Positions 11,590-33,238 of a DNA stretch of 61,267 nucleotides are shown piece after piece. The stretch is from a virus: positions 1-61,267 of the IMG/VR virus record IMGVR_UViG_3300018080_000191; one strand, given 5' to 3'. Position numbers and translations under genes: made by a program. How positions within the stretch are numbered: position 1 is the stretch's first letter; each line of letters opens with the position of its first letter. A model generated the notes under the pieces. It searched no databases. It saw nothing but the letters and a program-made list of their open reading frames with translations, and was not told the DNA's origin.

Positions 11590-11861
11590 GAATCGTAAAG
11601 ATAGAAAAAACGAGTAATTGCTATCCTGCGAGGTGGGAGGGGTATACTGACGATAATAGGCCGGTATATATTAGCTACAGACGCGGATATTTGCATGTTG
11701 TCGTTGGAAATCCCGGAGAAAGCTCTAAGTTTATGAGTATGCACAAGGTTTTTCGGCAAAAGATTGGCGAGATTTGTAATGGCTTTCTGAATTATGATCA
11801 GCTCAGGGAGCGTTGTTTTGGTTTTGCGATTTTTCCGGATCGAGAAATAAAAAAGGTTTGA
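11583..11861 (+). CDS. hypothetical protein (92 aa)
   Basis: The gene overlaps its neighbour by 7 bases. The N-terminal half has a strand pattern with aromatic residues (CYPARWEGYTDDNRPVYIS, YRRGYLHVVVGN) and the C-terminal half is helical and basic. No known motif. Function unknown. Confidence 0.65.
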   Translation: MVRIVKIEKTSNCYPARWEGYTDDNRPVYISYRRGYLHVVVGNPGESSKFMSMHKVFRQKIGEICNGFLNYDQLRERCFGFAIFPDREIKKV

Positions 11862-11892
11862 AAAAACCATAGAGGGGGAATAAAAAACAGGT

Positions 11893-12573: not shown

Positions 12574-12574
12574 A

Positions 12575-13468: not shown

Positions 13469-13491
13469 TTTGTAAAAATGTTGGAGGCTTT

Positions 13492-13663
13492 ATGAAGTAT
13501 GCACAGAATACAAGCGTTTCAGCAGATCGCTCTCGGGACGAAAGCGAGAGGATCTTGATGCGGTATGGGGCCACGCGGAGATGTATAGCACGGGGAAAAG
13601 CATACCCTTATTGCCTATGTCATAAGAGATGGGAATACCAAAAGATATATTGAGAGAGCATAG
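13492..13663 (+). pseudogene. truncated, frameshifted remnant of a common small phage protein
   Basis: After a strong GGAGG site the frame begins MKYAQNTSVSADRSRDE and reaches RYGAT. I recall many phage proteins that begin with this pattern (MKYA..TSV...RSR.EIE..L.RYGA) and continue with a short strand pair and a G-R-x-x-R-F end. Here the expected continuation is lost in frame after RYGAT, and a related segment (LIAYVIRDGNTKRYIER) appears in the +1 frame up to a stop at 13661. The in-frame product would stop at 13653 (53 aa). At least one frameshift and a 3' truncation are needed. It overlaps the start of the next gene. Confidence 0.6.
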
Positions 13664-14420: not shown

Positions 14421-14474
14421 TAATGTGACTGAGGAAGAGCTAACCTGAGCTCTGATCTAAGGACATAAGGACAG

Positions 14475-15371
14475 TTGAAGATCTTAATAATAAACATCGA
14501 CAGTAAAATCCCGAATTATGCTTTAAAGAAAATTGAGGCATATCACCGGGATCGGAAAGATGAAGTTATCTGGGACTTTCCGCTTGCGAAATACAGCGTG
14601 GACAGGATCTACGTTTCTTGTATTTTCGCCAAGAATAAAGCTTTGTGTAATGAATATGAGATTATGGATAACGCCTTTATTGGTGGAAGTGGCTATGATT
14701 TGGATACCAACCTCCCGGATGATATTGAATCTGTGAAACCCAGGATAAACCTTGGGTTTACGACTCGTGGCTGTATAAGAAAATGCGGATTTTGCGTTGT
14801 CCCCCGAAAAGAGGGTAATATAAGAGTTGTTGGTGACTTATTGGATTTATGGGATGGTCTGGCAAAAAAGATTGTGTTGTTGGATAACAACATACTTGCT
14901 ATGCCAGAGCATTTTCGTTTGATATGTAAGCAGGCTCGGGATAATAAGATAGCTTTGGATTTTAACCAGGGCCTGGATCACCGCCTGATTGACGATGGTG
15001 TTGCAAAGGAGCTGAAATCGGTATCGCACGAGTTTTATCGACTAGCCTTTGATCACCCATCTTATTTTAAGAATGTAGAGAAAGCTATCGATATTCTTCA
15101 TGCCCATGGACTGATATATAATATCTGGTATGTTTTGGTTGGTTATGATGCCACCATTGAAGAAGATTTATTCAGATTGAACTATTTGAGAAATAGGAGG
15201 GAGAGAGTATTTCTTCAGAGATATAGGCATGATCCTATTTACGTTCCTATGGCACAGTGGGCTAATAACCGGAGCTGGTTTTCGAAAATGACATTTGATT
15301 ATTTTATCAGGAATCATTCGAAAGGCGTGAGATATAAGGAACTCTATCGAGATATTTTGAAAATTGCGTGA
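14475..15371 (+). CDS. radical SAM protein
   Basis: A TTG start (TTGAAGATCTTAATAATA) follows AGGACAG; the sequence MKILIINIDSKIPN is the usual start of this phage family. The 4Fe-4S cluster motif is TTRGCIRKCGFCVVPR (CxxxCxxC), followed by the barrel strands (KIVLLDNNILA, ALDFNQGLDHRLID, RLAFDHPS, YNIWYVLVGYD). The N-terminal 80 residues resemble a degenerate B12-binding-like domain of the MiaB/BchE type. Substrate unknown. It is co-oriented with the RNA-repair pair, so RNA or tRNA modification is conceivable, but other targets are equally possible. Confidence 0.9.
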   Translation: MKILIINIDSKIPNYALKKIEAYHRDRKDEVIWDFPLAKYSVDRIYVSCIFAKNKALCNEYEIMDNAFIGGSGYDLDTNLPDDIESVKPRINLGFTTRGCIRKCGFCVVPRKEGNIRVVGDLLDLWDGLAKKIVLLDNNILAMPEHFRLICKQARDNKIALDFNQGLDHRLIDDGVAKELKSVSHEFYRLAFDHPSYFKNVEKAIDILHAHGLIYNIWYVLVGYDATIEEDLFRLNYLRNRRERVFLQRYRHDPIYVPMAQWANNRSWFSKMTFDYFIRNHSKGVRYKELYRDILKIA

Positions 15372-17398
15372 TGAATCCATATATCGACATAAAAGAAGAG
15401 AACGATATTAAGTATCTGGATGATTTGGCGACAGATATCACTCATTACGTGTCGCAGCTCATTTTGAATGTTTATAACGGTGTTGCCGAGAATGTCGGTG
15501 TTCCGGATCCGGATAAACTTGCGGTTCAACCTCCCAGAAAACTTAAAAAGGCTACCAGCCCGGATATACGGATATATTGCGACATGGATGGTGTACTGAC
15601 CGATTGCGAAGGGCATTTTTATGCCCATACGAGAGTGCGGATGCGTGAGTACGAGCTGGAGTTTGGCGAAGATGCGATGTGGGAGAGGGTAAACAAGATA
15701 GGTCATTTTTGGCTTGATATGCCGTGGACGCCAGAGGGTAAAAAACTATGGGGCCATATCAAAGATTATAATCCGATTTTATTGACCGCTCCAGCGAAGG
15801 GGGTAGATGACTGCCGGCAGGATAAGATTGAGTGGGCAAGGAGAGAGCTTGGACCAGATGTTAAAGTGATTTTCTCGCATAATAAATACAGGTATGCTGA
15901 CGGGAAATCGATCTTGATTGATGATTTTAACTCTAATATTAAGAACTGGCAAATGGCCGATGGGATAGGTATTAGACATAATTCTGCTGCCGAAACCATA
16001 TCGATGCTTGAGGAAAAACTGAACGATATGGTAACGGTTTCGAACCATTCGGGAACGGTTCCGAATGATTCGGGAATGATTCTAAAGGGTTTCCTCTCGG
16101 GTCTGAAAGATGTGGCGAAAAAGATTATCAGGTTTGTTGGGCGTAGGCGGAAAATGGAACCGTTCAAGATTAAGGACATGGTATTATATAAACGTGGAAA
16201 ACCGCTTACACAGGCTCAGTGGGATCGGTTTGAAAAGCGTGTAATAGATTATTTGAAGCCGTATTTACTTGATATCAATGAAGAGATGGCCGTGAAGGGG
16301 GTGCTCCTGGCGATGGTATCGGCAGAGGCCGAGGAGCAGCAAAAGCAGGTAAAGGAATATGGCAAAAAGAGCCTTGAACAGGTAGAAAATGAGCAGTTCA
16401 GGGGGTATATTCCGGATGACATCAGGACAGCCAGGGAAAGGCTGAAGATAGGCCGAGATACAGAAAAATCGATGGTTATGGCGTATGATAGGGCTGCAGC
16501 GTATGTGCAAAAGGTTAGCGATGATGTGAGGACGGCGATAAAGCAGCAGGTTATAAATGCTCACAGGCTCGGGAAAACACCGCAGCAGCTCGCATCGGAT
16601 CTGTATTGGATGAAGGATGAAGTTCCGGAGATGAAACAGTATACGGCTCAACACCTCCTCAGGGATTGGCACAGGGTAGCGGTAACGGAACTGCAGCATA
16701 TTCACAACATGGGGAAATTCGGGAAAACAGAGCACCAGGCCCGGGAGAGCCTGGAGAAACCCGAGCTTGCTGTTTATTTCGTTTTTTCCAGGGGAACCTG
16801 CGAATGGTGTCGAGCTCACCATGGTACGATAGTGCGACAGATACCCATGGATGCAGTGGGGAGCGAGGTCGATGATAGCTTATCGAGCCGGGGCATAAGG
16901 GATCCGTATACCGATATCGCGGTTTGGCAGGGAAAGAATAATGTAGGATACAGGAAGGCAAGCTGGCGGGTGTGTGTACCAGCTCACCCCTGGAATACCG
17001 CGAACTTGGTGAGAATACATCCTGATGCCCAGGAGTACGATAAAAGGACGCATCAGATTAAATTTAAGGATGAACAGGGTCTTGAGAAGTATTTACCTGA
17101 GGGATTCAGGGGGGATCTGGAAGCTGCAAGGAAAAGAAACCTGGAGCGAAAAGAGAGGGCTGTAGCGGACACCAGAGAGGGGGTTCACAAGAAGTGGAGT
17201 AAATATTTTGACGAGAAGGGCGAGCTCAAAGGTACTGACGAAAAGGGTCGTCCTCTGGCGGAGCGCGAGGGTAGGGTATATGTTGGTGTTCCCCAGGAAG
17301 AGGTGGGGAAAGAGCTCGAGGCCTGGAGGGCTGACAGCTCGAGGCCGATTCCGATAGGGACCGGGCAGAAAAACTATACTAGACTGTTTGGGGGGTAA
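15371..17398 (+). CDS. minor head protein (MuF/SPP1 gp7-like) with fused HAD phosphatase domain
   Basis: ATG 15371 overlaps the radical SAM stop. Residues about 65-220 are a haloacid dehalogenase domain: motif I YCDMDGVLTD (Asp71, Asp73), motif II region ILLTAP, and motif IV SILIDDF (Asp184, Asp185), looking like the 5'-deoxynucleotidase group. From about residue 260 to 545 runs the phage head morphogenesis domain, with long helices (QQKQVKEYGKKSLEQVENEQ), AVTELQHIHNMGKF, and the zinc-type GTCEWCRAHHGTIV block followed by HPWNTANLVRI. A charged tail completes 675 aa. MuF-like proteins bind the portal and are packaged, so a packaged nucleotidase is suggested. Between the domains the DNA holds short palindromic repeats (about 16036-16080). 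Confidence 0.85.
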   Translation: MNPYIDIKEENDIKYLDDLATDITHYVSQLILNVYNGVAENVGVPDPDKLAVQPPRKLKKATSPDIRIYCDMDGVLTDCEGHFYAHTRVRMREYELEFGEDAMWERVNKIGHFWLDMPWTPEGKKLWGHIKDYNPILLTAPAKGVDDCRQDKIEWARRELGPDVKVIFSHNKYRYADGKSILIDDFNSNIKNWQMADGIGIRHNSAAETISMLEEKLNDMVTVSNHSGTVPNDSGMILKGFLSGLKDVAKKIIRFVGRRRKMEPFKIKDMVLYKRGKPLTQAQWDRFEKRVIDYLKPYLLDINEEMAVKGVLLAMVSAEAEEQQKQVKEYGKKSLEQVENEQFRGYIPDDIRTARERLKIGRDTEKSMVMAYDRAAAYVQKVSDDVRTAIKQQVINAHRLGKTPQQLASDLYWMKDEVPEMKQYTAQHLLRDWHRVAVTELQHIHNMGKFGKTEHQARESLEKPELAVYFVFSRGTCEWCRAHHGTIVRQIPMDAVGSEVDDSLSSRGIRDPYTDIAVWQGKNNVGYRKASWRVCVPAHPWNTANLVRIHPDAQEYDKRTHQIKFKDEQGLEKYLPEGFRGDLEAARKRNLERKERAVADTREGVHKKWSKYFDEKGELKGTDEKGRPLAEREGRVYVGVPQEEVGKELEAWRADSSRPIPIGTGQKNYTRLFGG

Positions 17399-17400
17399 AA

Positions 17401-17574
17401 ATGTTTTATTTAGGGATAGCTTTATTGATGTTGTTTTCAACTGCCACCCTCTATAACCTAAAGATGGCGTTAAGCGAGGATGAGGTAGAGGATAGGGTTT
17501 TGCGTTTTCTGGGGGTAATTGTTACGGGGCTTGTGTCGTTTTATGTAGCCCATACATTAGGGTTTTTGGGGTGA
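17401..17574 (+). CDS. two-helix membrane micro-protein (57 aa)
   Basis: ATG three bases after the preceding stop, with GGGGGG upstream. Two hydrophobic helices (residues 2-20, LGIALLMLFSTATLY; residues 36-56, LGVIVTGLVSFYVAHTLGFL) flank an acidic loop (SEDEVED), a hairpin-type topology similar to small holins. No family match. A holin role is possible but unsupported by any neighbouring endolysin; the anchored hydrolases are 8 kb away. Confidence 0.7.
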   Translation: MFYLGIALLMLFSTATLYNLKMALSEDEVEDRVLRFLGVIVTGLVSFYVAHTLGFLG

Positions 17575-17595
17575 TAAGATAGGGGGGGTATTCGG

Positions 17596-17919
17596 ATGAA
17601 AATAGCAATAATCGGGACAACGGCATACCAGAACAGGATGACCGAACATGCCCAGAACTTGCTGAAAGAGGGGCACGAGGTCAAGATGCCTGCGTTTGAT
17701 AGTATAGAGGGAGATGAGTATGCCATCTGCAAATACAACAGGAGCGCGATAGAATGGAGCGATAGGGTCCATGTTCTCTGGGATGCGCGGAGTGTGGGTA
17801 CTATATTTGACCTGGGGATGTGTTTTGCGATGAGGAAGCCGATAGACGTAATATTTATGCAGCCGAAAAGGTTTCCTAATTTTGTGGAGCAATATGAAGA
17901 GCGGGGGAGTGATGGATAA
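17596..17919 (+). CDS. nucleoside 2-deoxyribosyltransferase-like protein
   Basis: The 107-aa Rossmann-like protein starts with strand MKIAIIGTTAYQ and contains the family hallmarks: a central DRVHVLWDARSVGTIFDLG segment in which a D-x-x-x-x-x-x-x-S-x-G-T-x-x-x-x-G pattern matches the 2-deoxyribosyltransferase superfamily, then AMRKPIDVIFM. Members exchange bases on deoxynucleosides or cleave N-glycosidic bonds of nucleotides. The usual catalytic Glu position is replaced by Asp (FDLG), so activity is uncertain. RBS GGGGGG precedes ATG. Confidence 0.72.
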   Translation: MKIAIIGTTAYQNRMTEHAQNLLKEGHEVKMPAFDSIEGDEYAICKYNRSAIEWSDRVHVLWDARSVGTIFDLGMCFAMRKPIDVIFMQPKRFPNFVEQYEERGSDG

Positions 17920-18011
17920 CGGGGAACTGTTAGGTGAGGCAATTATAAATTAAGGGGGTCGTAAAGTGAAAACAATTTCAGGGAACACCAAGATGGTGGA
18001 GTAAGGCAGTG

Positions 18012-18674
18012 ATGAGTAAGATTGAATGGTGTGACATGACCTGGAACCCGGTTTGGGGTTGTAAAAACAATTGCCCGTATTGCTATGCCAGGAAGATAGC
18101 GAAGCGGTTTGGCACAACGCCAGAGATGAGAAATTTTGAGCTGACGTGGATGGAGAAAAACTATACCAAGAGGTTTCCTGCGAAGCCGAAGCGCATTTTT
18201 GTCAATTCGATGTCGGATATTTATTTCTGGGAACATGGCTGGGTCGAGCGGGTTTTTGAGAGAATAGTTGATTACCCGCAACACGTATTTATGTTTCTTA
18301 CGAAGTTTCCGGAGTCTTATGGAATATGGAGTCAGCTTATATTTCCCGAGAACTGCTGGCTCGGGATAACGTGTACAACGTTTGAGAGGCTTGTCGAGGT
18401 GGTGCTGGATATGAATCATATCGCCAGGGGGAACACTTTTTTTATTTCAGCGGAACCATTACAGAATGACATCGGAAATGAGATAGGTCGTGTTGGTATC
18501 AGAGAAAACTTTGATTGGCTTATTGTTGGTGCCGAAACAGGCAACAGGAAAGGGAAAACAATCCCGCAGCGGGAGTGGATCGAGGAACTGGTGGACATTG
18601 ATATTCCCCTATTTATGAAGGATAATCTTCGCCCGTATTGGGATGGGAAATTTCGCCAGGAGTGGCCGGGATAA
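18012..18674 (+). CDS. phage Gp37/Gp68-like (DUF5131) radical SAM-type protein
   Basis: The start MSKIEWCDMTWNPVWGC and the motif CKNNCPYCYARK (CxxxCxxC, cluster-binding) are diagnostic for the DUF5131 group. The C-terminus shows the typical WLIVGAETG and DIPLFMKDNL blocks. These proteins are widespread in phages and are built like radical SAM enzymes; their reaction is unknown. ATG 18012 is preferred over a GTG at 18009. Two tiny open frames (17912-17953, 17966-18004) lie upstream and are not annotated. Confidence 0.93.
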   Translation: MSKIEWCDMTWNPVWGCKNNCPYCYARKIAKRFGTTPEMRNFELTWMEKNYTKRFPAKPKRIFVNSMSDIYFWEHGWVERVFERIVDYPQHVFMFLTKFPESYGIWSQLIFPENCWLGITCTTFERLVEVVLDMNHIARGNTFFISAEPLQNDIGNEIGRVGIRENFDWLIVGAETGNRKGKTIPQREWIEELVDIDIPLFMKDNLRPYWDGKFRQEWPG

Positions 18675-18694
18675 GTAAGTCGATAGGGGGTGAT

Positions 18695-18940
18695 ATGAGT
18701 AAATGGATAAGTGTTAAAGATAGGTTGCCGGAATTTGAAGAGGATGTATTGATACATTATATACTTCAGGGTGGCGATCGAGTATTACATTGTTATGATG
18801 TAGGTTATTTGCAAGCAATAACTGAACGGAAATCCACTGATGGGAGTACCTATATAACGGAGTGGTGGAGTCAGTCCCGCTCGGCACACGAGCCTACCCA
18901 CTGGATGCCATTGCCCGATCCACCGAAGGAGGGGATATGA
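18695..18940 (+). CDS. DUF551 family protein (81 aa)
   Basis: ATG follows GGGGGTGAT. The family signature is plain at both ends: KWISVKDRLPEFEEDVL and THWMPLPDPP. DUF551 proteins are small, frequent in phages and prophages, and have no known activity; the conserved Trp, His and Pro residues suggest a compact beta fold. It overlaps the next gene by ATGA. Confidence 0.93.
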   Translation: MSKWISVKDRLPEFEEDVLIHYILQGGDRVLHCYDVGYLQAITERKSTDGSTYITEWWSQSRSAHEPTHWMPLPDPPKEGI

Positions 18941-19245
18941 CGAATAAACAAGCACAAAAAAGGGCGTTAAAAAATTATGAGGGATTGATTCGCTGTTTGG
19001 AGACGTTTCCAAAACGAGCAAAAATACATTCCGAGTCAGATATGTTAATGGAGTTATGGAGTGTTTTTATTTATCCCTGCTCATATTGTAAAAAATACAA
19101 ACACTACTGTGTAGAGTGTGTGTTGAAGGTTGATGGTGGTTGTTGTGGTGGTTTGTTTGAATCCATGACAAGTGCTGAAACTTATGGACAGGCATTAAAA
19201 TATGCCAAAGCAATCCATAAGTTCATTCAGGAGAAAGGGATATGA
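18937..19245 (+). CDS. Cys-rich small protein (102 aa)
   Basis: ATG overlaps the DUF551 stop with GGAGGGG upstream. The first 50 residues are helical; the centre holds a Cys cluster (YPCSYCKKYKHYCVEC, then GGCCGG), likely a zinc or iron-sulfur site. The C-terminal helix is charged. No family recognised, although phage proteins of this size next to DUF551 are common. Confidence 0.75.
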   Translation: MTNKQAQKRALKNYEGLIRCLETFPKRAKIHSESDMLMELWSVFIYPCSYCKKYKHYCVECVLKVDGGCCGGLFESMTSAETYGQALKYAKAIHKFIQEKGI

Positions 19246-19279
19246 GACGGACAATATAGTATTTATTGGGTAAGGGGAT

Positions 19280-19597
19280 ATGGGAACATCACCACAGAAC
19301 GACCGAATGGAGATACAAGAGAAGTATAAGATAGCTGGCTTATGGGTTCCCGTTTTAGTTGTTGATGCAACAATACTGGGGGATGACCGAGGGAGATTGC
19401 AAACGATAAATGGAGAATTAACCATATTGTTGGCTGATAACATGGGAGGCCAGATGCGCGAAACAACGCTGATACACGAGATTTTTGAGGCTATTAACTT
19501 CTTGTTTGAAATAGATCTTGAGCATAATAAAATAAGTACGCTCGAGGCAGCGTGGTATCAGGTTTTGAAAGATAATTTTCTCTTAAAGAGTAGATAA
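19280..19597 (+). CDS. small phage protein with HEIFEAI helix (105 aa)
   Basis: The protein resembles a small family of phage proteins related to zincin peptidases: a strand (GLWVPVLVVDATILGDDRGR), an ILLAD strand, a helix TLIHEIFEAINFLFE and a C-terminal LEHNKISTLEAAWYQVL. In active zincins the helix carries HExxH; here the second His is Ala (HEIFEA), but a later His-containing segment could still bind metal. It may be a structural, non-catalytic relative. Function unknown. Confidence 0.72.
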   Translation: MGTSPQNDRMEIQEKYKIAGLWVPVLVVDATILGDDRGRLQTINGELTILLADNMGGQMRETTLIHEIFEAINFLFEIDLEHNKISTLEAAWYQVLKDNFLLKSR

Positions 19598-19694
19598 AGG
19601 GTGGAGTAGGGATTATGGGATAGAGAAGAGAGGGTAAACCGCCAGCGGAATTGAATATGGAATTGAAAGCGAGAATTGCGGAATTAGAAAGTGG

Positions 19695-19765
19695 AGCGGG
19701 GTAGAGTAGTGGTTACTCGGGGGTCTCATACGCCCTCCAGGCTGGTTCAATTCCAGCCCCCGCCA
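19695..19765 (+). tRNA. tRNA-Met (CAT anticodon)
   Basis: A 71-base cloverleaf can be folded by eye: acceptor AGCGGGG with CCCCGCC, D stem GAG/CTC, anticodon stem GGGGT/GCCCT with loop CTCATAC (anticodon CAT), and T arm GCTGG-TTCAATT-CCAGC. The first acceptor pair is A-C, a mismatch, while all others pair; G-T pairs close the anticodon stem. A CAT anticodon may also mean Ile (lysidine type). It ends at the discriminator A; the 3' CCA is not encoded as such. It is the only tRNA I found in the window. Confidence 0.85.
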
Positions 19766-21647: not shown

Positions 21648-24600
21648 TTGAAAAGCGATTTAGCGGAATTTAAGTCTTTTATTGGTCGGGACTTCTCAGA
21701 AATAAAATATCATCTGCACACTCAGGGATATGAGTTCGCCTGGGGTAGCACATATTCAATCAATGATGTGCGTAAGGCAATTATGGATCGCCAGCCCGTT
21801 TTTGTTCAGTTGTCTGGACACACGGGCCTGGTTGTTGGTGAGAATCCCGATAGCCTTGTAGTCCATGATGGGAGAAAGATCCTTGAAATTCCCGATTCCA
21901 GGCTTATGAAGTCGTGGACTGGAAATGCTATTATTGTTCAGGAATCCGTAAATGAAACAGAGAACAACGGTAACCCCCTGGTCCTGTTTACCCCGGAGCG
22001 GGATAACTGGCCGGCAGAATGGGAATTGCAGAAACTGGCAACAAACAGGATTTTGAGAACGCTGCAGCTCGATGAGCCCTTTCTCCCGCCACATCCGATT
22101 ATTGTATCATACATAAAACCAACCCAAAACGAGATATCAAAAGGGATTAAGGCTATGCTCCTGGGGGCCGAAGTCAACATTTACGATCCCTCAGATCCCC
22201 TGACCGAGTTCTTGCATGAGCTGGGGCATCTGTATTGGTATACCAGGCTCACGAAAGAAGAAAAACAGGAATGGATTGATTATCACAATACCCTATCGAA
22301 AAAGAACGCTTCTGCAATATTTGCGGGAAAGGCGGGGATGCAGACCGTTGAAGAGGCTTTTGCGACTATCTATATGTGGTATCTGAAGAGCAAGGTTATC
22401 CATGAGGGTTATGGTCGCATTTTGCGATTTCAAGAGCCGAAGGGTCTTGGGCTCCTTGAGAACGTTGTCGAGAGAGTCCGGTACGAGAACCAGGCCGTGG
22501 ATAAGTACAGGGAAAACGAGCAGCTTCTTGCCGAGTGGGTAGAAGCAGAACCGCGCGTGATGAGGCTCGCGGGGGGTTCCAGGATTATCAAGGCTAGGTT
22601 TGGCAGTAAGCCGGCGGAAAAGATACCATTCCCCAGGGTAATAAAACACACAATTAACGAGAGAGAGGATGGCAGAGTATTTATAACCGTAAATGAGGGC
22701 TTGCTGAAGGGTAAGGAACTGGTTGTCAAGGACGGCTTTATCGAGCTGGGTTATGAACCGCTGCTGAAGGCCGGTCCGGGGAAGAAAGATACAACGAAGC
22801 TTGTCAGGAAGGTTATTACCAACAAGAAGGGGCATCGGCAGACAGTTTGGGTCCGTCCTGGGGAGAAAGAGAAAAAGAGAAAGCCTAGTAGTGGTGGGGG
22901 GTTGAAGGAAAAACTACTGGCGAGTACCATCAATGAGGATTACAAAAAGGAGTGGGAGGAGAATAATCGTTTAACTCTACTCGGCCAAAAGGTTACGAAC
23001 GCGAACGATCTCGCGTACTTGGCTAGGATATACAGGAACCCTCAGTATGAAACGTTCCGGATATTTATGCTTAACGACAAGGATGAGGTTGTTGCACAAA
23101 CAGGTATATCGCTGAGGTTGCCTGGGGCTGCGACACCTTTTGTAGAGCCCGAATGTCCGCCAAGGTCGTGGATGTATTACAAATCGATGATGAAAAACTC
23201 GGGAGCAACAAAGTATTACCTGCTGCATAACCACCCAAGCGGACGAACAACACCGTCTATGGCGGACGAGGTTGCAACGCGAGCATTTATCAACCAGATT
23301 CCCGGATTTAAGGCCCATATCGTTATCAATCATGACGAGTATACGAAAATCCAAGCTTTTCCGGACAGCAGTCAGCTTGATATTGAAAAGTCACATTACA
23401 GTCCCCAGGGAGACGACAAATATCATCAAAAAGGCGAAGTTCATCCCCTGGTGGGGGTCAAAATTCTTGATCCCGATCAGTTGGTAGACTTGGCAAAACA
23501 TGCAGAATTTAACAGTAAACGTTATATTTCGCTAATTTCTACTGATGTATACGGAAAGGTAAGCGGGATCATGCAGGTGCCGAAAAACTATTTTCGTGGT
23601 TTTGCCGATAAGGGTTATGATTCCATTCGCGATTTTGCCAGGACAGTCGGGAGTATGAGAATATTTATGATTGGTGGTGGTGAATATGGTAAGTGGGAGA
23701 AAAATTATGATTGGTCTACAGTATATAGAAATGCGATAAAAAGGGGTTATCTTACGGATGCCGTTACCGGTGACGGGAAAAGCTTGTCAGAGCGAGTAGC
23801 ATATATTCGCGACATCAGGCCGGACCCTGGTTATCTTATGGGGGTAAAATTCAGCGAGGCGAAGCCCACGGTCCACGAGGCTGTAAGGAAAGCCAGGGAC
23901 TTTATTTTAAAAGCCAAGGATATTTCGAAGCTCGTTAAAAAGGTTATTATAAATAAAAAAGGAAAGCAGCAGACGGTCTATGTAAAGCCGAGTTCAGGAG
24001 AATATAAAAAGAAGCCGTGGGAATTAACGAAAGAGGAATTTATAAAGAATACGCCAGAGGGATTCAATTATAGTAATTTAATTAAACATGAAGCTGATCG
24101 TCATACAAAACCACCATTGATCACTGTTGGTGATAAATTTTTTAAACTTACACCAATTGAAAGAGAACATGTAATAATCCATGAAAGAGGTCATGAGCTT
24201 TCAGACAAAATGCTTAAAGATGGAAGTGCATTTAAGCTTGCTGACTCTGGGGCATTTGGGCCAAAATATAAAGATGGCACAATAAATGGTATAAATGGGC
24301 AATTCACCCCCGGAGAGAATGTTGCTGAGGCTTATGCGATGTTAATCAGCAATTATAGATGGTTAAAAGAAAAATATCCAATAGTATATAAAAAAATAGG
24401 GGAAAAGGCAATGAGTTATGGCCTGGATATTCCCTTTGCCGTTCAAAAGGAACTTGGGATTATTAAAGTAGATAAAAATCAAAGCAAAAAAAAGAAGAAA
24501 GTGAAAATACTTCCCCAAAAAGTTCGCGAGAATATTGTTGAAAAAGCAGAATTTAAGAAGTGGTTCGGGAACAGCAAGGTTGTTGACGATAAAGGGAAGC

Positions 24601-27407
24601 CACTGGTCGTATATCACGGGACAACAGCAGAGGGCTTTACCGAGTTCGCAGCCGGTAGCGATGTTTCAGGGGAGAGCGATGAATATTATCGTACTGGTAG
24701 TGGTGGCGATCCTACAACTTTTCTCGGAAGCCATTTTGCAGACAGCTCCCTGGTCGCGGGGAAGTTTGCACGGGGCCTGTACGGAGAGCGGGAGTTTTCT
24801 GATAAGGGTGGCAGGATTATGCCGGTTTATCTGAAGATGGAGAACCCGCTGAGGGTTGACGAATCAGAGATGTTTGATATGATGTATCGAGAGTCATATA
24901 ATGCGCCCATTATCGAGAGTATCCTAGAGGGGGAAGCGTATGACGAAGATGTTGAGCCAGAGGAGATTTACGAGCGGTATGATACAGATGAGAAATACAG
25001 GAAAGATATAAATAAGCGAGCTCTCGAGGAGGAGAATCGGGCAGAGGAGCCCATATTTGAGCTCGCACAGGAAATGGCAGATACACTCAGGTCGAAACTG
25101 ATAGATGATGGCCATGACGGTATTATCTATGATAATGAAGTTGAGGGTGGGGTGTCGTATGTCGTATTCGAGTCAACACAGGTGAAATCAGCGACAGGGA
25201 ATCGGGGGACGTTTGATCCGAAGAATCCGGATATAACAAAGGCGTTTCGGGAGATCCTGAAGGCCCCGAAAGACGTTGCGAAGCTAGTTAAGAAAGTTAT
25301 TATCAATAAGAGAGGGAAAAAACAGACCGTTTACGTGAAGCCAGTCGGAGCTAAATCGGAGCCCAAAACGAGGCCTGTTAAGACGGAGTTCAAAAAGAAG
25401 TCCAAGAAGGGGAAAGCAATACACTCTCCTGCGTTCAAGGCCTGGTTCGGGGATTGGGAAAAGGGAGAAGGGAGCCGGGTGGTTAAGAAGGACGGAAGCC
25501 CGCAGGAAACCCATCACCTGGAGAGTTATCCGGACGAAAAGGGAGAGCCGATTAAGGTGTATCACGGGACGGAGAAGGGTGGTTTTACTGAATTTGATGA
25601 AAATGCGATAGATCCCGATGCCCTCTATGGAGCCGGATTTTATTTTACTGAGGATGAAAAAATTGCAGAAGAGTATGCTGGGGGTGGCTTGTATGATGGC
25701 GAGTATACGGTTGTAAAAAGCGATGGCATGAATCATGTGCTATCGTTTGAAGATGAGGACGATCTCGACGATTATACTTCGCAGATGCCAGATGACGAGT
25801 ATAATGCTGCAAAGCAGTACGAGAAAGACGGAAAGTATTTTCTGGAATATAGTGCTGGTCCCGAGAGCGAGGTTTACGAGGTTTATCTTAATATCAGAAA
25901 GCCATTTGATATTGATAATGGTATCATACCGTTTGAGAAATTGAGAGATTTTGTTGAAAAGACAGGTTTGCTGAAGCAGGAAAAGAAAAAGAGTGCCATG
26001 GGGCAGTTGGATGATCCCGATAAACAGGTTGACTATAAATACGAGCATGCGAGTTGGTTGCTCGGTGGTGATGTAGACATAGTAAATGCATTGCTGAAGT
26101 CTATTGGTCATGATGGTCTTACCCATATGGGTGGCAGGAGAGTGGGTACTCGCGATCATCGCGTCTGGATAGCCTTTAAGCCAAACCAGATAAAAGCCAC
26201 AACCGCAGAAGAGTTTGATCCCGGCAGCAATAACATCTATAAGGCAGTGGAGCAGCTCAGGAGCCTTCTGGAAATTGACCTCTCTGGGCTGGGGGAGCGA
26301 TATAGTCATGACTTTAAGAGGTTAGGGACTGAGTTCGGGGACGTGCTCAGGAAGGGGATAAGCTATGCTGATTTGAGGAAGCGCGTTAAAGCCACTGAAA
26401 CCAGCCCAACCGAGGCCCAAAAGCGGGCCGGAAACTATAAAAAGGCGAAGATCCCCTGGAATGGTCTGACTATTTCAATCGAAAACCCGAAGGGTTCCTA
26501 TCGCTCGGGTGTTGATAGGAGCGGGCAGGAGTGGAAATCAAAACTGCATCATGATTATGGCTATATAAACCGGACCGAGGGAGGGGACGGAGATCATGTT
26601 GATGTATTCATCGGCAAGGATGTTGATAGCGATAAAGTTTTCGTCATTAACCAGGTGGATCCGGAGACTGGCCGATTCGATGAGCACAAGGTCATGATCG
26701 GGTTTATGAGTGAGGACGATGCGAGATCTGGATATTTGGCAAACTATGAGGATGGCTGGAATGGAATCCGTGATATTGTTACCCTCTCTTTGGACCAGTT
26801 TAAGAAGTGGTTGAATTTTGGAAATACAAAGGAGTCGTTGATAAGAGAGGCCATTGCAAAGCTTAATACTGTTATTAAGGCAGCAAAAGATAAATCGCAT
26901 CTTACGCCGACCAAAGTTACCAGGAAAGATGGGGTAATTACTACGGTTTACAAGAATCTCAACAAAAAGGTAGAGATAGCAAATTTTGTACGTGATGCAA
27001 TAAAAAATCCACACGGGTATCCTCATACTTTTGAATATGGAGAGGTTGACAAAAAGGAGAATGAGAGGTATAAGAAAATCGGCTTTGACCTGGAGGGGTA
27101 TATACACGTATTAGATAGGTCGGGTATCAGGCATATACATAAAAGGCATGGTGTTGGAAATGAAACGGACCAGAAACTTTCTCCGGTTAAAACCAAACAT
27201 ATCAGGATGATTCCCGATATAGTGAAAAATCCGGACCGCGTTGAATATGCTGGTACTGATGATACTATGGGGCATGATGTTTTACGATATATTCGTAGAA
27301 TAAACGGGGACGTAGTTTATGTTGAAGAAATAAGGATTGGGAAGAAAAGGGTGTTGGCAACGAAGAGTATGAGAATAGAAAAGAGGAGACGCTCTGATGT
27401 CAAATGA
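21648..27407 (+). CDS. giant polyvalent protein: zincin, JAB/RadC, zincin, two ART-like domains, InPase, PBECR RNase-like
   Basis: A 1919-aa multidomain protein with TTG start and GGGAGAG upstream. Order by eye: residues 1-110 possible papain/C39-like remnant (HTGLVVGENPDSLVVHDG); zincin HELGH (190-194); recurrent linker (381-404); RadC-like JAB domain with LLHNHPSG (His527, His529) and Asp540 in exact HxHx10D spacing; linker (757-783); second zincin-like HERGH (845-849); ADP-ribosyltransferase-like VVYHGTT (His990); linker (1207-1234); second ART-like VYHGTEKG (His1306); InPase-like domain about 1583-1725 (GDGDHVDVFIG); a degenerate linker; and a C-terminal PBECR-type RNase-like domain (RHIHKRHG, about 1825). 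Such polyvalent proteins are thought to be packaged and injected to counter host defences. Domain identities are from motifs and memory; the N-terminal domain is the least certain. Confidence 0.88.
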   Translation: MKSDLAEFKSFIGRDFSEIKYHLHTQGYEFAWGSTYSINDVRKAIMDRQPVFVQLSGHTGLVVGENPDSLVVHDGRKILEIPDSRLMKSWTGNAIIVQESVNETENNGNPLVLFTPERDNWPAEWELQKLATNRILRTLQLDEPFLPPHPIIVSYIKPTQNEISKGIKAMLLGAEVNIYDPSDPLTEFLHELGHLYWYTRLTKEEKQEWIDYHNTLSKKNASAIFAGKAGMQTVEEAFATIYMWYLKSKVIHEGYGRILRFQEPKGLGLLENVVERVRYENQAVDKYRENEQLLAEWVEAEPRVMRLAGGSRIIKARFGSKPAEKIPFPRVIKHTINEREDGRVFITVNEGLLKGKELVVKDGFIELGYEPLLKAGPGKKDTTKLVRKVITNKKGHRQTVWVRPGEKEKKRKPSSGGGLKEKLLASTINEDYKKEWEENNRLTLLGQKVTNANDLAYLARIYRNPQYETFRIFMLNDKDEVVAQTGISLRLPGAATPFVEPECPPRSWMYYKSMMKNSGATKYYLLHNHPSGRTTPSMADEVATRAFINQIPGFKAHIVINHDEYTKIQAFPDSSQLDIEKSHYSPQGDDKYHQKGEVHPLVGVKILDPDQLVDLAKHAEFNSKRYISLISTDVYGKVSGIMQVPKNYFRGFADKGYDSIRDFARTVGSMRIFMIGGGEYGKWEKNYDWSTVYRNAIKRGYLTDAVTGDGKSLSERVAYIRDIRPDPGYLMGVKFSEAKPTVHEAVRKARDFILKAKDISKLVKKVIINKKGKQQTVYVKPSSGEYKKKPWELTKEEFIKNTPEGFNYSNLIKHEADRHTKPPLITVGDKFFKLTPIEREHVIIHERGHELSDKMLKDGSAFKLADSGAFGPKYKDGTINGINGQFTPGENVAEAYAMLISNYRWLKEKYPIVYKKIGEKAMSYGLDIPFAVQKELGIIKVDKNQSKKKKKVKILPQKVRENIVEKAEFKKWFGNSKVVDDKGKPLVVYHGTTAEGFTEFAAGSDVSGESDEYYRTGSGGDPTTFLGSHFADSSLVAGKFARGLYGEREFSDKGGRIMPVYLKMENPLRVDESEMFDMMYRESYNAPIIESILEGEAYDEDVEPEEIYERYDTDEKYRKDINKRALEEENRAEEPIFELAQEMADTLRSKLIDDGHDGIIYDNEVEGGVSYVVFESTQVKSATGNRGTFDPKNPDITKAFREILKAPKDVAKLVKKVIINKRGKKQTVYVKPVGAKSEPKTRPVKTEFKKKSKKGKAIHSPAFKAWFGDWEKGEGSRVVKKDGSPQETHHLESYPDEKGEPIKVYHGTEKGGFTEFDENAIDPDALYGAGFYFTEDEKIAEEYAGGGLYDGEYTVVKSDGMNHVLSFEDEDDLDDYTSQMPDDEYNAAKQYEKDGKYFLEYSAGPESEVYEVYLNIRKPFDIDNGIIPFEKLRDFVEKTGLLKQEKKKSAMGQLDDPDKQVDYKYEHASWLLGGDVDIVNALLKSIGHDGLTHMGGRRVGTRDHRVWIAFKPNQIKATTAEEFDPGSNNIYKAVEQLRSLLEIDLSGLGERYSHDFKRLGTEFGDVLRKGISYADLRKRVKATETSPTEAQKRAGNYKKAKIPWNGLTISIENPKGSYRSGVDRSGQEWKSKLHHDYGYINRTEGGDGDHVDVFIGKDVDSDKVFVINQVDPETGRFDEHKVMIGFMSEDDARSGYLANYEDGWNGIRDIVTLSLDQFKKWLNFGNTKESLIREAIAKLNTVIKAAKDKSHLTPTKVTRKDGVITTVYKNLNKKVEIANFVRDAIKNPHGYPHTFEYGEVDKKENERYKKIGFDLEGYIHVLDRSGIRHIHKRHGVGNETDQKLSPVKTKHIRMIPDIVKNPDRVEYAGTDDTMGHDVLRYIRRINGDVVYVEEIRIGKKRVLATKSMRIEKRRRSDVK

Positions 27408-27809: not shown

Positions 27810-27844
27810 GTTTCGAAATGGGTATTTATATAGGGGATAAAATC

Positions 27845-30800
27845 ATGAAATTAGCGGAACTACTCAATAAAGCTCGAAAAAATACGTTACGCAAAGGGAA
27901 ACCTCCCGGGAAGCTTGATACGTCTAAACTGGTCAGGAAACAGATCATTGACAAAACAGGGCGTAGAACGACCAAGTGGGTCCGTGTCGTAAAAGAGGAA
28001 AAGAAGTCTATCTGGGATATTATTTCCGGTTTTTTTAAGAATCGGGATCCAATACGTGTAGTGCATGAAGAATATGACAAGCACAGAATAAAAGATAGGT
28101 TTGGGATAAACATGAAGTCCTGGACAGAACATTTTGTCGAATATTTCAAGAATAAGGCGAAGTGGGATAAGCTGTTCGGTAAAACCAAAACTACTACCGG
28201 TGGTGGTGGCGGAAAAACCGGTGGTGGCGGTGGCAAAACTGGCGGTGGTGGGGAGAAGGCAACCCCAACGCTTAATCGCAATGTTATGAAGTTTCTCTAT
28301 GAAACTTATGGAAATTTAAGGGAGGCAAAAGATGGAAAAGATCAACCTGGTGCTGGACGAGAGGTACTTTCCGAGGCTGGCGAGGATGAACGCGGAAAGG
28401 CTCAGGCAAAAGTTAGTGTCGCTGTGCCAGATGCACAACCTTCCGATCACGGAAGCCAATCTACGGTCAGTGGCAGCGGATCTGGAATCGGATCTGGCAA
28501 CAAGTCTTGGAAGCAAGGATTGAAAGAAATTAAGGATATTCGGGCCCAATGCCTGGAGATTCTTAAAAAGTCTGATGAGGAAATAACTTACGATGATTTA
28601 CAGATTTTGCGACAATATGAGGGCATTGGCGGAGTTGAGAGCGAGGGTCGTGGGATATTAGATCAGTATTACACTCCCCACAAAGTTATTAGCAAGATGT
28701 GGGATTTGGTAGCCAAGTATCCCCAACGCAGGCAATCTGGGAAGTGGAACTCTCGCGTCCTGGAGCCTGCAGCAGGAACAGGGCGGTTCGCGGATGGTAT
28801 AAGCGGGGATGTAAATTTTGACATGATAGAGCCGGATCCGATTGCAGCTCGGATCAACAAGTTGTTGCATCCGGATGCAAACGTTATTGAGGGTGAATTT
28901 CAATCACTGTTTTTTAAAGAGGGCCGTCTCCATCAGAAAAAATATACGGGCAAAAAGTATGATGTCGTTATCGGTAATCCGCCGTATAGGCCCTATGAGG
29001 GTAAATGGAAAGGTATGGGTGAGGGTAAAGGCCATACCCAGATGCACGAATATTTCATTGATCGGGGCCTGGATACCCTGATAGCAGGTGGTATCCTGGC
29101 CATGATAGTGCCATCAGGTTTCCTCAGAAGTGCGAACAGTAAAGTAAAAGAGGAGATCGCCAAGAAGGGTCGGTTGCTTGAGGCGTATAGGCTCCCGAAC
29201 GGTACATTTAACACAACGGCGGTGGGGACCGATATCCTGATTATCCGAAAAGAAGAAGGCGGGAGCACCGAGCACTTTTTTGATGACAATTACTTTAATG
29301 ACAATCCCACACATATCCTGGGAGAGGAGTCTACGAGGACGGGCAAGTTTGGTCCCGAAAGGTTTGTATCTCTGAGGACCGGCCAAACGTTTGATAGCAC
29401 TATTGACATGATTAACGTAAATGCTGTTGAGCGTGTTGGCATGGGTGAGAAAACGCTATCTGAAGAGGCAAAGGAAAAAATATCTCTGGCATTGATGGGG
29501 AATAAAAACGCCGAAAAGGAGATACATGAAGAGCACAAGGACAACTTCAAAGAAGCCCACAAGGGTGAGAGCGTGGAACTCTTGGAGTCGCTCCTGGGAG
29601 CCGAGAAGGCGAACGAGGCCAAGGACCAGGCCAGGGTAGAAGCCCTCCAAGAGATGGTTGATCAAAGGAAAAAGACAAAATATAATGATGTTGGCACCTG
29701 GAATCTGAAGAAGTTTCACAGGGAATTGAGCGAAAGTATAAAAACTGGTGGTGTTCACGAAAGCGACCTGGAGCAGGCCAAAAAGAACCTGACCGAGATG
29801 GAAGTGGAACTGCAAAAAAGGCAGGAGTGGACGAAAGAGGATGAGAAAAAGGCGAAGCAGCGCGAGAAGATTAAAAAGCAGGAAGCAACGGCACCGGAAG
29901 CCACAGAGAAGAAGAAAAAGGAGTTCTATACTCTAGATGAGTTTATAAAACAATATGGCGGAAAGTTTGACGAGCTTGACCTGAAGATATGGCGACATAC
30001 CAAAAATGATGGCTCGATAGATATATCGCAGACCCCCTGGAACAAGGACAGTAAGGGCCGTATCTGCTATTTGGGTGGAAAGTATTATCACAATACGAAC
30101 TATGCCAGCGGGAATGTAATTGAAAAGCTTAAAAAACTTGAAGAGGAAAAAGACGAGATCATAAAGAAGTTTGGCAAGGAGCAATATACGAGACAGAAGG
30201 AACTTCTGGAGAGCGTCAAACCCGAATATAAAACCACGAAAGAAATTGTGATGTCCCCATTGTCCAGTTTTGTGAGGGATTTTAGATTCGAATGGGATAA
30301 AGACGAAAACGATAGTCAAAAGTCCCTGATTCAGTTATTCTGGGATTGGTGTGGTGTCGAAAGTAATTGGAGGGGAACCAACTTTAACGGTGGTGCCACT
30401 CCTCACGATCTTACTGGCGGGATAGATTGGGATGATATTGTTGAATATGTCAACAGGGTACCCAGGAAAAAGTCGCAGCATGAAACGAAGGAATTTGTTG
30501 GACAAATTAAAGCCAAAAGGCGTGAAAATGCGGAGAGGCTGTTTAATCGCTTTATCCAGGAGGGGCTCTCGGGTAAGTATAAAGAGGATTTTGAGAATAG
30601 ATTCAACGAGCGTTTCAACAGCAATGTAAATGCCGATTTTGCGAATATCCCGGTATTTGTGGATGGGTTATCAAAAACCTTTAAGGGAGACAAGCTACAG
30701 GTAAAGGACGTTCAGCTCGAGGGTGCAGCGTATTTGACCAATAAGGGGGCCGGACTATTGGCGTATGAGGTTGGGGTTGGAAAGACTTTAACGGGTATTC

Positions 30801-33238
30801 TGGCCACTGTGCAGCAGTTACAGTTGGGGCGTGCTAAAAAACCGGTTATTGTCGTTCCAAAGGCAACTTATAAGGGATGGTTAAGCGAAATCCGGGACCT
30901 GTTCCCAAACCTGAAGATTAACGAGCTAGACAATTTACGTGGGTACAATAAAGATAATATGCCGGATATTAAAGATGGAACGCTATCGATATGTACCTAC
31001 CAGGCTCTTGACAACCTGACATTTAAAGATGATACGCTTTTTGAGTTGTCAGAGGATCTTGAGGATACTATGGCCAATCCGTTTGGTGTTGACATAAAGG
31101 CCGGTAGTGCAGAAGAGAAGCGCAGAGAAAAGGAACGGGAGCGTATAAAGACAAAATTAGGCGAGGGAGCGAGCGTTGTAAGTGACGTTATTCATGTTGA
31201 GGATCTGGGATTTGACCATATTACGGTTGATGAAGCTCATAACTTTAAGAACGTGTTCTCGAAAGCTGAGGCCGAAAAGAATCAGGATGGCTCGAAGGCT
31301 GCAAACGAATATTCTACAGTAACGGGATCGTCCAGTGTGCGCGGGTCTAAGATGTTTATGTTATCGCAGTATATACAGCGCAAGAATGAGGGGCGAAATG
31401 TGTTTATGTTGACAGCAACACCGTTTACGAACTCCCCCTTGGAGATTTATAACATGCTATCATTCATGGCGCGGGATAAGCTGAAAGAGATGGGAATTTA
31501 CAACATCAATCAGTTTCTCAGTGCTTATGCCAAGGTCCAGGACGAATGGGCAGTGTCTCATACGGGACAAATTACGAAAAAGGGCGTAATCAAGGAGTTC
31601 CATAATGTTGGTGCTCTTCAAAAGCTGATAAAGCAGTATATCGATTTTAAGGGAATCGATGACATTAACGAAAGAGCTGGTTACGAAGCCATAAAGAGAC
31701 CGAAGAAATTTCAGCATCTTGTCGAGCTCCCGAATAATCCCGAGTTGGAAAGCATACTAGAGGGTGAACAGAGAAGAATGACGGATATCGAAGAAATACG
31801 AAAGGGCGGGGTGCTGAAGGGGATTAACACGTCTAGGACGGCAACGCTCTCTCCGGCCCTAGTGGCAAGCAAGCTCGATGATTTTCATAGTGCTGATGTT
31901 CGGACAAAAAAATGGGATTTGGTTGAGGACAGCCCAAAGCTGAAATTTAGTTTTGGCCTCACCGCCGAAATGTACAAAAAGAGGCCGGATTTGGGGCATG
32001 TAATATACATTCCCCAGGGGGTGGAGAAATTCAAGGAGATGACCGAGCACCTGGTTAAGCAGGGCGTTCCCAAGGATGCAATTGCAACTATTCATGGCGG
32101 TATGAGTGGCGATAAGGGAGCTGAGCGAATTGAGGCGATTAAGAAAGAATTTAACGATCCTGACGGGAAAATTAAGGTTTTAATCGGCAGCTCCACTATT
32201 CTGGAGGGTATCAATCTGAACGGCAATACGGCATTTTTGCATAATACAATGTTGGGGTGGAACGCCAGCGAAACGGTGCAGCTCGAGGGCCGGTCATGGA
32301 GACAGGGAAATAGACAGGAGAATGTTCACATAATTACTCCCGTTATTCATGATTCGATTGATTCTGTGATGTATCAAAAACATGATGAAAAAAAATCGCG
32401 GTTTGCGGAAATCCATAACTTCAAGGGCGATAAAATGGATGCTGGTGAGATTGACTACAAGGACGTAAAGTTTGATCTTATTAAGGATCCGGAGAAAAAA
32501 GCTCAATTTAGGATCGAGCTCGAAACCGAGAGGTTGAACGATCAAAAGCTGGAGAAGAGAATTTTGAAAGACGGGATTGGCAATATTGCCAAGCAGCGTG
32601 ATGAAAGTATAAATGAGATACCGAGACTGGAAGAGGATATAAAAGAGCATGATCAGAAGATGGAGGAGCTCAAAGGGGCTATTGATAAGGCGCGAGCTGA
32701 AATTAAGGAGATGCCAAACGAAACTGATGAGCAGCTTAGTGCGATTGAGCGAAAAAAGAGGTTTGAGGTTGACTATGTAAAGGATGACTACGATCACGAG
32801 AAGCGATATCGGGATAATAAAAAGAAAAAGATTGAAACCCTGAAGGTGCAGATTGAGGTTTTTAATAAAAAAATGAACGAGTTGGGTGGCGAGGATATCA
32901 ATGCCACCATTGCGAATCTTGACCAGGAGATAGACGAGATCAATAATACGATTAAGGGATTCCAGGAGAAAAAGAGCCAATATGTCGAGGAGGCAAAAAG
33001 GGATATAGAGCGCAAGAAAAAAGTGGTCCCTGGCGTAAATGAACAAATAACCAAATATGCTGAAATGCTATTGGAAAACGTGGAGTACAGCAAGGAGTAT
33101 CAGGAATTACTCGAGGAGTCTAAGAAAAAGTATAAGGTTGGCAAAAAGGTTGTAAAGGCACATGTTCTGCCAAAAGCCAGAAAAGAGCCCCGGACGTATA
33201 TTTTTGGGGGTGTAACATATAGAATGATAGGAGAGTAA
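27845..33238 (+). CDS. giant polyvalent protein: adenine-N6 DNA methylase fused to SNF2-type helicase
   Basis: ATG 27845 is chosen since AGGGGAT precedes it (27818 also possible); 1797 aa. Order: recurrent linker (residues 25-48), shared N-terminal module with Gly-rich repeats (about 55-155), then a SAM-dependent methylase with DQYYTPHKVI, LEPAAGTGRFADG and catalytic NPPY (378-381). A charged helical middle follows. A SNF2-like ATPase has Walker A YEVGVGKT (Lys980), VVPKATYKGW, DEAH (1129-1132), LTATPFTNSP and a C-terminal lobe with STILEGINL and QLEGRSWRQGN. The end (about 1570-1770) is a long coiled coil. Methylase plus helicase fusions occur in phages and plasmids and are thought to protect incoming DNA. 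Its neighbours carry the same N-terminal module. Confidence 0.93.
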   Translation: MKLAELLNKARKNTLRKGKPPGKLDTSKLVRKQIIDKTGRRTTKWVRVVKEEKKSIWDIISGFFKNRDPIRVVHEEYDKHRIKDRFGINMKSWTEHFVEYFKNKAKWDKLFGKTKTTTGGGGGKTGGGGGKTGGGGEKATPTLNRNVMKFLYETYGNLREAKDGKDQPGAGREVLSEAGEDERGKAQAKVSVAVPDAQPSDHGSQSTVSGSGSGIGSGNKSWKQGLKEIKDIRAQCLEILKKSDEEITYDDLQILRQYEGIGGVESEGRGILDQYYTPHKVISKMWDLVAKYPQRRQSGKWNSRVLEPAAGTGRFADGISGDVNFDMIEPDPIAARINKLLHPDANVIEGEFQSLFFKEGRLHQKKYTGKKYDVVIGNPPYRPYEGKWKGMGEGKGHTQMHEYFIDRGLDTLIAGGILAMIVPSGFLRSANSKVKEEIAKKGRLLEAYRLPNGTFNTTAVGTDILIIRKEEGGSTEHFFDDNYFNDNPTHILGEESTRTGKFGPERFVSLRTGQTFDSTIDMINVNAVERVGMGEKTLSEEAKEKISLALMGNKNAEKEIHEEHKDNFKEAHKGESVELLESLLGAEKANEAKDQARVEALQEMVDQRKKTKYNDVGTWNLKKFHRELSESIKTGGVHESDLEQAKKNLTEMEVELQKRQEWTKEDEKKAKQREKIKKQEATAPEATEKKKKEFYTLDEFIKQYGGKFDELDLKIWRHTKNDGSIDISQTPWNKDSKGRICYLGGKYYHNTNYASGNVIEKLKKLEEEKDEIIKKFGKEQYTRQKELLESVKPEYKTTKEIVMSPLSSFVRDFRFEWDKDENDSQKSLIQLFWDWCGVESNWRGTNFNGGATPHDLTGGIDWDDIVEYVNRVPRKKSQHETKEFVGQIKAKRRENAERLFNRFIQEGLSGKYKEDFENRFNERFNSNVNADFANIPVFVDGLSKTFKGDKLQVKDVQLEGAAYLTNKGAGLLAYEVGVGKTLTGILATVQQLQLGRAKKPVIVVPKATYKGWLSEIRDLFPNLKINELDNLRGYNKDNMPDIKDGTLSICTYQALDNLTFKDDTLFELSEDLEDTMANPFGVDIKAGSAEEKRREKERERIKTKLGEGASVVSDVIHVEDLGFDHITVDEAHNFKNVFSKAEAEKNQDGSKAANEYSTVTGSSSVRGSKMFMLSQYIQRKNEGRNVFMLTATPFTNSPLEIYNMLSFMARDKLKEMGIYNINQFLSAYAKVQDEWAVSHTGQITKKGVIKEFHNVGALQKLIKQYIDFKGIDDINERAGYEAIKRPKKFQHLVELPNNPELESILEGEQRRMTDIEEIRKGGVLKGINTSRTATLSPALVASKLDDFHSADVRTKKWDLVEDSPKLKFSFGLTAEMYKKRPDLGHVIYIPQGVEKFKEMTEHLVKQGVPKDAIATIHGGMSGDKGAERIEAIKKEFNDPDGKIKVLIGSSTILEGINLNGNTAFLHNTMLGWNASETVQLEGRSWRQGNRQENVHIITPVIHDSIDSVMYQKHDEKKSRFAEIHNFKGDKMDAGEIDYKDVKFDLIKDPEKKAQFRIELETERLNDQKLEKRILKDGIGNIAKQRDESINEIPRLEEDIKEHDQKMEELKGAIDKARAEIKEMPNETDEQLSAIERKKRFEVDYVKDDYDHEKRYRDNKKKKIETLKVQIEVFNKKMNELGGEDINATIANLDQEIDEINNTIKGFQEKKSQYVEEAKRDIERKKKVVPGVNEQITKYAEMLLENVEYSKEYQELLEESKKKYKVGKKVVKAHVLPKARKEPRTYIFGGVTYRMIGE

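Follow-up and report, generated by a model that had tools for sequence, protein, structure and literature searches.

Protease-type motifs at the domain joints of a 1919-residue phage polyvalent protein suggest a packaged effector polyprotein

Giant multi-enzyme proteins of phages and conjugative elements, known as polyvalent proteins, combine zincin, ART, RadC, InPase and PBECR domains, are encoded in a late head-gene context and have been linked to early injection into the host (PMC5512222). How such proteins are packaged and deployed is a general question, and the main prior proposal for their deployment is self-cutting by embedded zincins. The parts of that study consulted here assign processing to these zincins, propose MPTase-mediated release with an analogy to polyproteins, and report that N4 vRNAP is packaged whole and unprocessed; those parts contain no site motif and no general role for a trans-acting prohead protease, and the word "linker" is absent from the main text (PMC5512222). 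Beyond that analogy, a literature search covering few subscription journals found no earlier description of a polyprotein of the kind proposed below.

Three other systems bear on the question. The T4 prohead protease gp21 cuts after L/I-x-E, reduces the scaffold to fragments, removes N-terminal propeptides of 7-65 residues and trims both termini of Alt (PMC9026906). In SPN3US and phiKZ, a gp21-like protease (gp245/gp175) processes head, ejection and vRNAP proteins at a short motif (PMC10052503, PMC5694885); 13 of the 14 cuts mapped in SPN3US remove N-terminal propeptides, the remaining one being a self-cut of the protease at its C-terminus, and published prohead-protease cuts are mostly N-terminal trimming (PMC10052503). 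In P1, DarA undergoes trimming, and an N-terminal targeting sequence directs the packaging of DarB (PMC9024508, PMC12810830).

Here we describe a 1919-aa ORF encoded in a viral DNA stretch of 61,267 nucleotides from IMG/VR (the window, analysed at its full length). The ORF shares the domain repertoire and the gene context of the polyvalent proteins, and we propose that its product is probably a packaged effector polyprotein cut between its domains by a prohead protease acting in trans. The proposal builds on the domains, on the copies of a linker between them, on the excess of a short motif, on the presence of that motif in scaffold, major capsid protein (MCP), protease and portal, and on its change of dialect in Leptospira phage LE1 and its relatives; from these we infer cleavage, packaging, injection and each enzyme activity of the protein. 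The locus resembles the T4 internal proteins and Alt in its three-residue site with a hydrophobic P3 and, by prediction, in N-terminal targeting propeptides, in a shredded scaffold and in the cutting of an injected ART, whereas P1 is Glu in T4 and Lys here, and accounts of T4 describe the trimming of ends, not the division of one chain into a number of enzymes. Likewise, the short-motif processing in SPN3US and phiKZ is similar, but the site there is AxE and domains are not released one by one. P1 offers a parallel through a DarB-like neighbour of our ORF, although its site is E|S (MCP E120|S121) and the Dar proteins are separate genes.

Domains of the 1919-aa protein

The features of the ORF, all on the + strand, are as follows.

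21648-27407, +: polyvalent ORF, proposed effector polyprotein; 1919 aa, TTG start, one open frame
21648-21977, +: N-terminal module, aa 1-110; no profile match, start site uncertain (TTG)
22035-22577, +: zincin-like segment 1; HELGH at aa 190 and a downstream Glu, assigned by motif
23016-23294, +: RadC-type JAB domain, aa 457-549 (Pfam); first half of a module of about 300 aa also found in L007
24045-24467, +: zincin-like segment 2; HERGH at aa 845 and a downstream Glu, assigned by motif
24585-25214, +: ART-PolyVal domain 1, aa 980-1189 (Pfam)
25533-26222, +: ART-PolyVal domain 2, about aa 1296-1525; profile E 4.3e-22 when searched alone
26412-26816, +: InPase domain, aa 1589-1723 (Pfam)
27048-27392, +: PBECR3 RNase-like domain, aa 1801-1915 (Pfam)

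The first in-frame ATG lies only at aa 46, and the extreme N-terminus is therefore uncertain. The first-pass annotation, made from the DNA letters, had described one frame at these coordinates with these domains in this order, and Pfam bore it out for RadC/JAB (aa 457-549, E 2.2e-6, above the cut-off), ART-PolyVal (PF18760; three stretches, E 2.9e-44, the best at 980-1189, above the cut-off), InPase (E 9.5e-58) and PBECR3 (PF18812; E 1.3e-18, above the cut-off), the last being a predicted RNase-like domain. The Pfam search, followed by a search with the second ART alone, gave two ART-PolyVal units. Every motif listed in that annotation is present: HELGH at 190, HERGH at 845, HxHx10D at 527, and YHGT at 989 and 1305. 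The RadC-type JAB domain it named, with exact HxHx10D spacing, was recovered by Pfam match, by motif and by an AlphaFold model of the JAB module, which matched RadC (2qlc) with an E-value of 1e-9 and a TM-score of 0.73 on the target, at an overall pLDDT of only 45. Its two zincins stand at the level of the motif: both HExxH segments have a downstream Glu consistent with a zincin, and neither these segments nor residues 1-110 were matched by any Pfam profile.

With RadC, two ARTs, InPase and PBECR3 in one chain, the protein combines domains of disparate activity, as the earlier link to the polyvalent proteins of Iyer, Aravind and colleagues had it. Because proteins with such domains are already known (PMC5512222), the domain list alone is ordinary and the recurrent linker is the informative part. 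The order of domains, which had been called unusual, is by itself unremarkable in so mosaic a class.

Residues of about 590-750, downstream of the RadC JAB domain (within 23016-23914), are conserved with the 3637-aa L007 polyvalent protein (31% over 299 aa). This region may be a second, degenerate JAB; no sequence match was found between the two halves of the module, for which the model was too weak, and a search of genome contigs for the JAB module found no relatives. A papain-like reading of residues 1-110, suggested by a C39-like look around His58, was dropped, as the preceding small ORF has only an unconvincing Cys and no profile matched.

Joints and the recurrent linker

The linker is a 30-residue element, (L/I)KA..KDxSKLVKKVIxNKxGKxQTVYVKP. 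In this ORF a short helix-like stretch that ends in hxK comes ahead of it, followed by Ala and a hairpin that is strongly basic in the window phage; written out, a copy reads [helix]-(L/I)xK|A-[basic hairpin]. That it recurs had been noted in the first-pass annotation, and we found three strong copies, following aa 374, 755 and 1205, and a divergent one following aa 1744, together with strong copies in three neighbouring ORFs: the DarB-like and LPD1 proteins, where the copy is close to the N-terminus, and the DUF6582 protein, where it is internal. At first pass, a search with a linker HMM gave no match beyond the window, other phages placing other hairpins after the same site, and a degenerate DNA pattern for the linker found no relatives. 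The seven modules of the 1919-aa protein are separated by six joints, each with at least one [LIVM]xKA site.

22761-22877, +: joint 1, LLK|A (P1 aa 374) and basic hairpin linker
23883-24017, +: joint 2, VRK|A (748) and ILK|A (755) with hairpin linker
24537-24548, +: joint 3, VEK|A (P1 aa 966), just before ART1
25233-25367, +: joint 4, ITK|A (1198) and ILK|A (1205) with hairpin linker
26235-26246, +: joint 5, IYK|A (P1 aa 1532)
26871-26972, +: joint 6, VIK|A (P1 aa 1744) and divergent hairpin linker

The protein contains ten [LIVM]xKA sites against 2.4 expected, with P1 at 43, 315, 374, 748, 755, 966, 1198, 1205, 1532 and 1744, and it has the highest enrichment among the 65 large ORFs scanned; a comparable excess was absent from most large ORFs of unrelated phages in the scan. 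FxK|S is not enriched. None of the ten sites falls in a Pfam domain (Fisher p 0.029 against other Lys). When all drawn domains are considered, one in ten lies inside compared with 113 of 192 other Lys (Fisher p 0.003), the limits of the zincins, the JAB module and the N-module having been drawn by hand with the sites already known, so that the Pfam-only value is the conservative figure. Not all ten need be real: site 43 falls within the N-module, and the edge at which site 315 is placed is undefined.

Such motifs could arise as a functionless by-product of amphipathic linker helices rich in Lys and Ala, and the linkers are indeed Lys-rich, with a hydrophobic P2 also in 8 of 19 KA dipeptides. 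We regard this as very improbable. Shuffling in blocks of 30, 60 or 120 residues, which keeps local composition, did not reproduce the excess (p 2e-4 to 4e-4), nor did the mirror motif AKx[LIVM], which occurs only twice, and other hxK tetrads lie inside domains about half the time.

A reading in which the whole protein is packaged and injected intact, the linker being a packaging tag whose basic hairpin binds DNA or scaffold, is also unlikely in our view, though it accounts for the basic character of the hairpin and for its recurrence near the N-termini of large neighbouring ORFs and in the DUF6582 protein. It has a precedent in the N4 vRNAP, and this precedent and the N-terminal bias of published prohead-protease cuts count against the polyprotein reading. 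What intact packaging leaves unexplained is the exact protease site ahead of each hairpin, the sites without a hairpin at joints 966 and 1532, and the switch to FxK|S in LE1-like phages described below.

The motif in head proteins and the maturation protease

In the window, TerS, terL and portal genes lie upstream of the 1919-aa ORF, which is followed by genes for DarB-like, 711-aa, LPD1 and DUF6582 proteins, the maturation protease, a scaffold-like ORF and MCP, and then by tail genes including a sheath; the ORF is thus encoded among virion genes. The relevant neighbours are:

5251-6912, +: portal protein; LIK|A (aa 27) near one end and LEK|A (aa 541) near the other
27818-33238, +: DarB-like methylase-helicase; N-terminal LLNK|A and linker, KA sites at the C-terminus
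33244-35379, +: 711-aa protein; N-terminal LLK|AGG, C-terminal LKK|ALGEPIEIFGIRV
35382-38612, +: LPD1 protein; N-terminal LLK|AGG and linker, C-terminal LLK|APIEIFGIKV
38616-39758, +: DUF6582 protein; TLK|A and linker at aa 241
40217-41083, +: T4 gp21-like prohead (maturation) protease; LQK|A at residue 12
41098-41790, +: scaffold-like ORF lying between the protease and MCP genes; [LV]xK|A occurs seven times
41813-43306, +: major capsid protein, SPO1/Twort-like; LLK|ALQAQ at aa 26

The scaffold-like ORF has seven [LIVM]xKA sites against 0.5 expected, and in portal, protease, MCP and head proteins encoded nearby the N-terminal extension likewise stops at hxK|A. Tail and early proteins of the window mostly have zero or one site, and ORF 52162-53727 has four. 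We then counted, with no motif chosen beforehand, all dipeptides following [LIVM]x in the scaffolds of eight phages, namely the window phage and seven with homologous proteases and MCPs. KS ranked first of all combinations (34 against 2.9, z 18) and KA second (15 against 3.9, z 6.1). The P1 Lys is invariant across eight aligned MCPs, and the same type of site occurs in more distant phages: the SPO1-type CampHawk, a Staphylococcus Silviavirus and a Thermus phage. Pattern scans using the window MCP and the LPD1 protein found no relatives, and an MCP alignment proved too diverse for such a scan. The 1919-aa protein thus carries the motif of its own phage's head proteins, as deduced from enrichment and not from sequenced cuts. 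That the capsids of phages A511 and K are cut after Lys is only a lead; our search, covering few subscription journals, found no published N-terminal sequencing of SPO1, K or A511 capsid proteins.

ORF 40217-41083 has homologues annotated as capsid maturation proteases, and its His63 and Ser123 are invariant in nine homologues. The best PDB match of its model, which is of modest quality (pLDDT 61), was T4 gp21 (5jbl; E 8e-4, probability 1.0), with herpesvirus assemblins lower at insignificant E-values and prohead proteases matched in BFVD; conserved His and Ser in an assemblin-like fold are what a caudovirus prohead protease has. The protein itself had no match in PHROGs or Pfam, including Peptidase_S78, and its CampHawk homologue, tied to it by a family HMM (9.6e-16), matches Peptidase_S78 above the cut-off.

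The DarB-like, 711-aa and LPD1 proteins show no internal site enrichment, their sites being mostly at the termini. Their N-terminal 170 aa or so form a common module around and after the linker position (31-42% identical). The 711-aa and LPD1 proteins also end in a near-identical peptide after a KA site, ALGEPIEIFGIRV and APIEIFGIKV, a possible C-terminal propeptide.

LE1-like Leptospira phages and the polyprotein model

The phages L006, L072 (LE1 itself, with gp25 100% identical) and L073-L077 have a related protease and MCP and form a set we call LE1-like. Their protease, scaffold and MCP N-terminus carry FxK|S, with FAK|T in the MCP of L075-L077. LE1 gp25 (YP_009860164, annotated as a tail protein) is an InPase/HAD polyvalent protein encoded next to the protease, scaffold and MCP genes, and it has four FxK|S sites against 0.5-0.8 expected (p 0.001-0.007): one before the HAD-like domain, one before InPase, and two that precede a hairpin (GETRTWADGKRHRKTDKGW and GEIRTWSDGNKYRK). 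The residues after the Lys are Ser50, Ser194, Ser367 and Ser522, in FQK, FQK, FLK and FAK sites, respectively. Its joints are enriched in FxK[SA], and [LIVM]xKA is not enriched in the LE1-like InPase polyvalent protein. LE1 gp25 is similar to the 1919-aa protein in having a protease-type site at each joint, with hairpins after two of them, and differs in the FxK|S site, in the hairpin sequence (GETRTWADGKRHRK), in its HAD-like domain, in lacking HExxH and in showing no JAB, ART or PBECR match. No internal enrichment was found in LE1 gp15, LE1 gp26 or a Thermus phage helicase. Sites flank InPase on either side, no more than 60 residues away, in six of seven phages with the SPO1-like capsid type, compared with 4 of 48 control InPase proteins from other phages (Fisher p 5e-5), a contrast that overstates independence because the LE1-like members are close kin, the effective number being about four lineages.

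These phages bear on who does the cutting. The chain could be cut by its own embedded zincin metallopeptidases, with the hxK|A motifs incidental or the zincins' own sites; the two HExxH motifs of the 1919-aa protein agree with this, as does the published MPTase proposal. However, the polyvalent proteins of LE1, L006 and L060/L065/L066 all have inter-domain sites and contain neither HExxH nor HExxxH, so that their joints cannot be put down to an embedded zincin of this type. The joint motif is moreover that of scaffold, MCP and protease and shifts with it between phages, and we consider self-cutting improbable.

A further link to the capsid lies in an MCP N-arm segment, KALQ...TDVxxLxGxxALxxQSLE (aa 24-54 of the window MCP). 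It is copied in the C-terminal tail of the window protease (aa about 200-230), in the same tail of four relatives (L061-L064), and, in the LE1-type phages L072, L073 and L074, where the InPase polyvalent protein begins. In LE1 that protein opens with MLTANSEGNTDVGNLTGGAALQ, a repeat of the stretch of the MCP located after the putative MCP cleavage site, FNANSDGITDVTALTNGAAT. The similarity suggests that the copies are a common prohead-docking element, or prohead-targeting mimic.

Since the joints of the 1919-aa protein carry the maturation-protease site of its own phage, the chain is probably split up into individual proteins inside the prohead. In the polyprotein model, one chain would be made and recruited into the prohead core with other head-cluster proteins, where the T4 gp21-like protease would cleave the inter-domain joints on the C-terminal side of the Lys of (L/I/V)xK|A. 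About seven products would result: the N-module with zincin 1, the JAB module, zincin 2, ART1, ART2, InPase and PBECR3, with predicted masses of 43.0, 43.3, 24.1, 27.0, 37.0, 24.0 and 20.4 kDa, respectively. In four of these, Ala and the short basic hairpin would come first (one copy divergent), giving new N-termini at Ala375, Ala756, Ala1206 and Ala1745, and the hairpin would remain at the N-terminus of the domains set free, where it might contact DNA inside the head. Once freed, the enzymes would be ejected together with the DNA and would work on host targets independently of one another, the ARTs on proteins, PBECR3 on RNA, and InPase on pyrophosphate or signalling nucleotides. Injection, suggested in the first-pass annotation, is plausible because the ORF lies in a late head cluster and linker-bearing relatives adjoin protease, scaffold and MCP; its further suggestion of delivery in one package is probably wrong, given the protease site at the joints.

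We lean, with less assurance, towards a wider statement: in phages with an SPO1-like capsid and a maturation protease cutting at K|(S/A), injected multi-enzyme proteins would be true polyproteins whose joints carry the protease site, often followed by a hairpin tag, with a site dialect that co-evolves with the protease and, in some, an MCP N-arm copy that can serve as the prohead ticket. A site readable from the scaffold of the same phage would then predict where the chain is cut, a simple rule for the real protein boundaries of injected effectors. If so, tailed phages have a polyprotein strategy that relies on a capsid protease acting in trans and recalls the polyproteins of RNA viruses.

Some further observations concern other genes of these phages. 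In LE1 (L078), gp22 looks like a maturation protease and gp23 like a scaffold, and gp15 and gp26 have a common N-terminal basic module, NVKYYKRExKAKGGYRYWY. In the window, 7936-19765 holds an RNA-repair-like set comprising a metallophosphatase (7936), an RNA ligase (12557), an RlaP nucleotidyltransferase (13629), a radical SAM protein (14475), a deoxyribonucleotidase-like protein (15368), DUF5131 (18009) and a tRNA-Met (19695), which may serve to repair tRNAs after cleavage by anticodon nucleases of the host.
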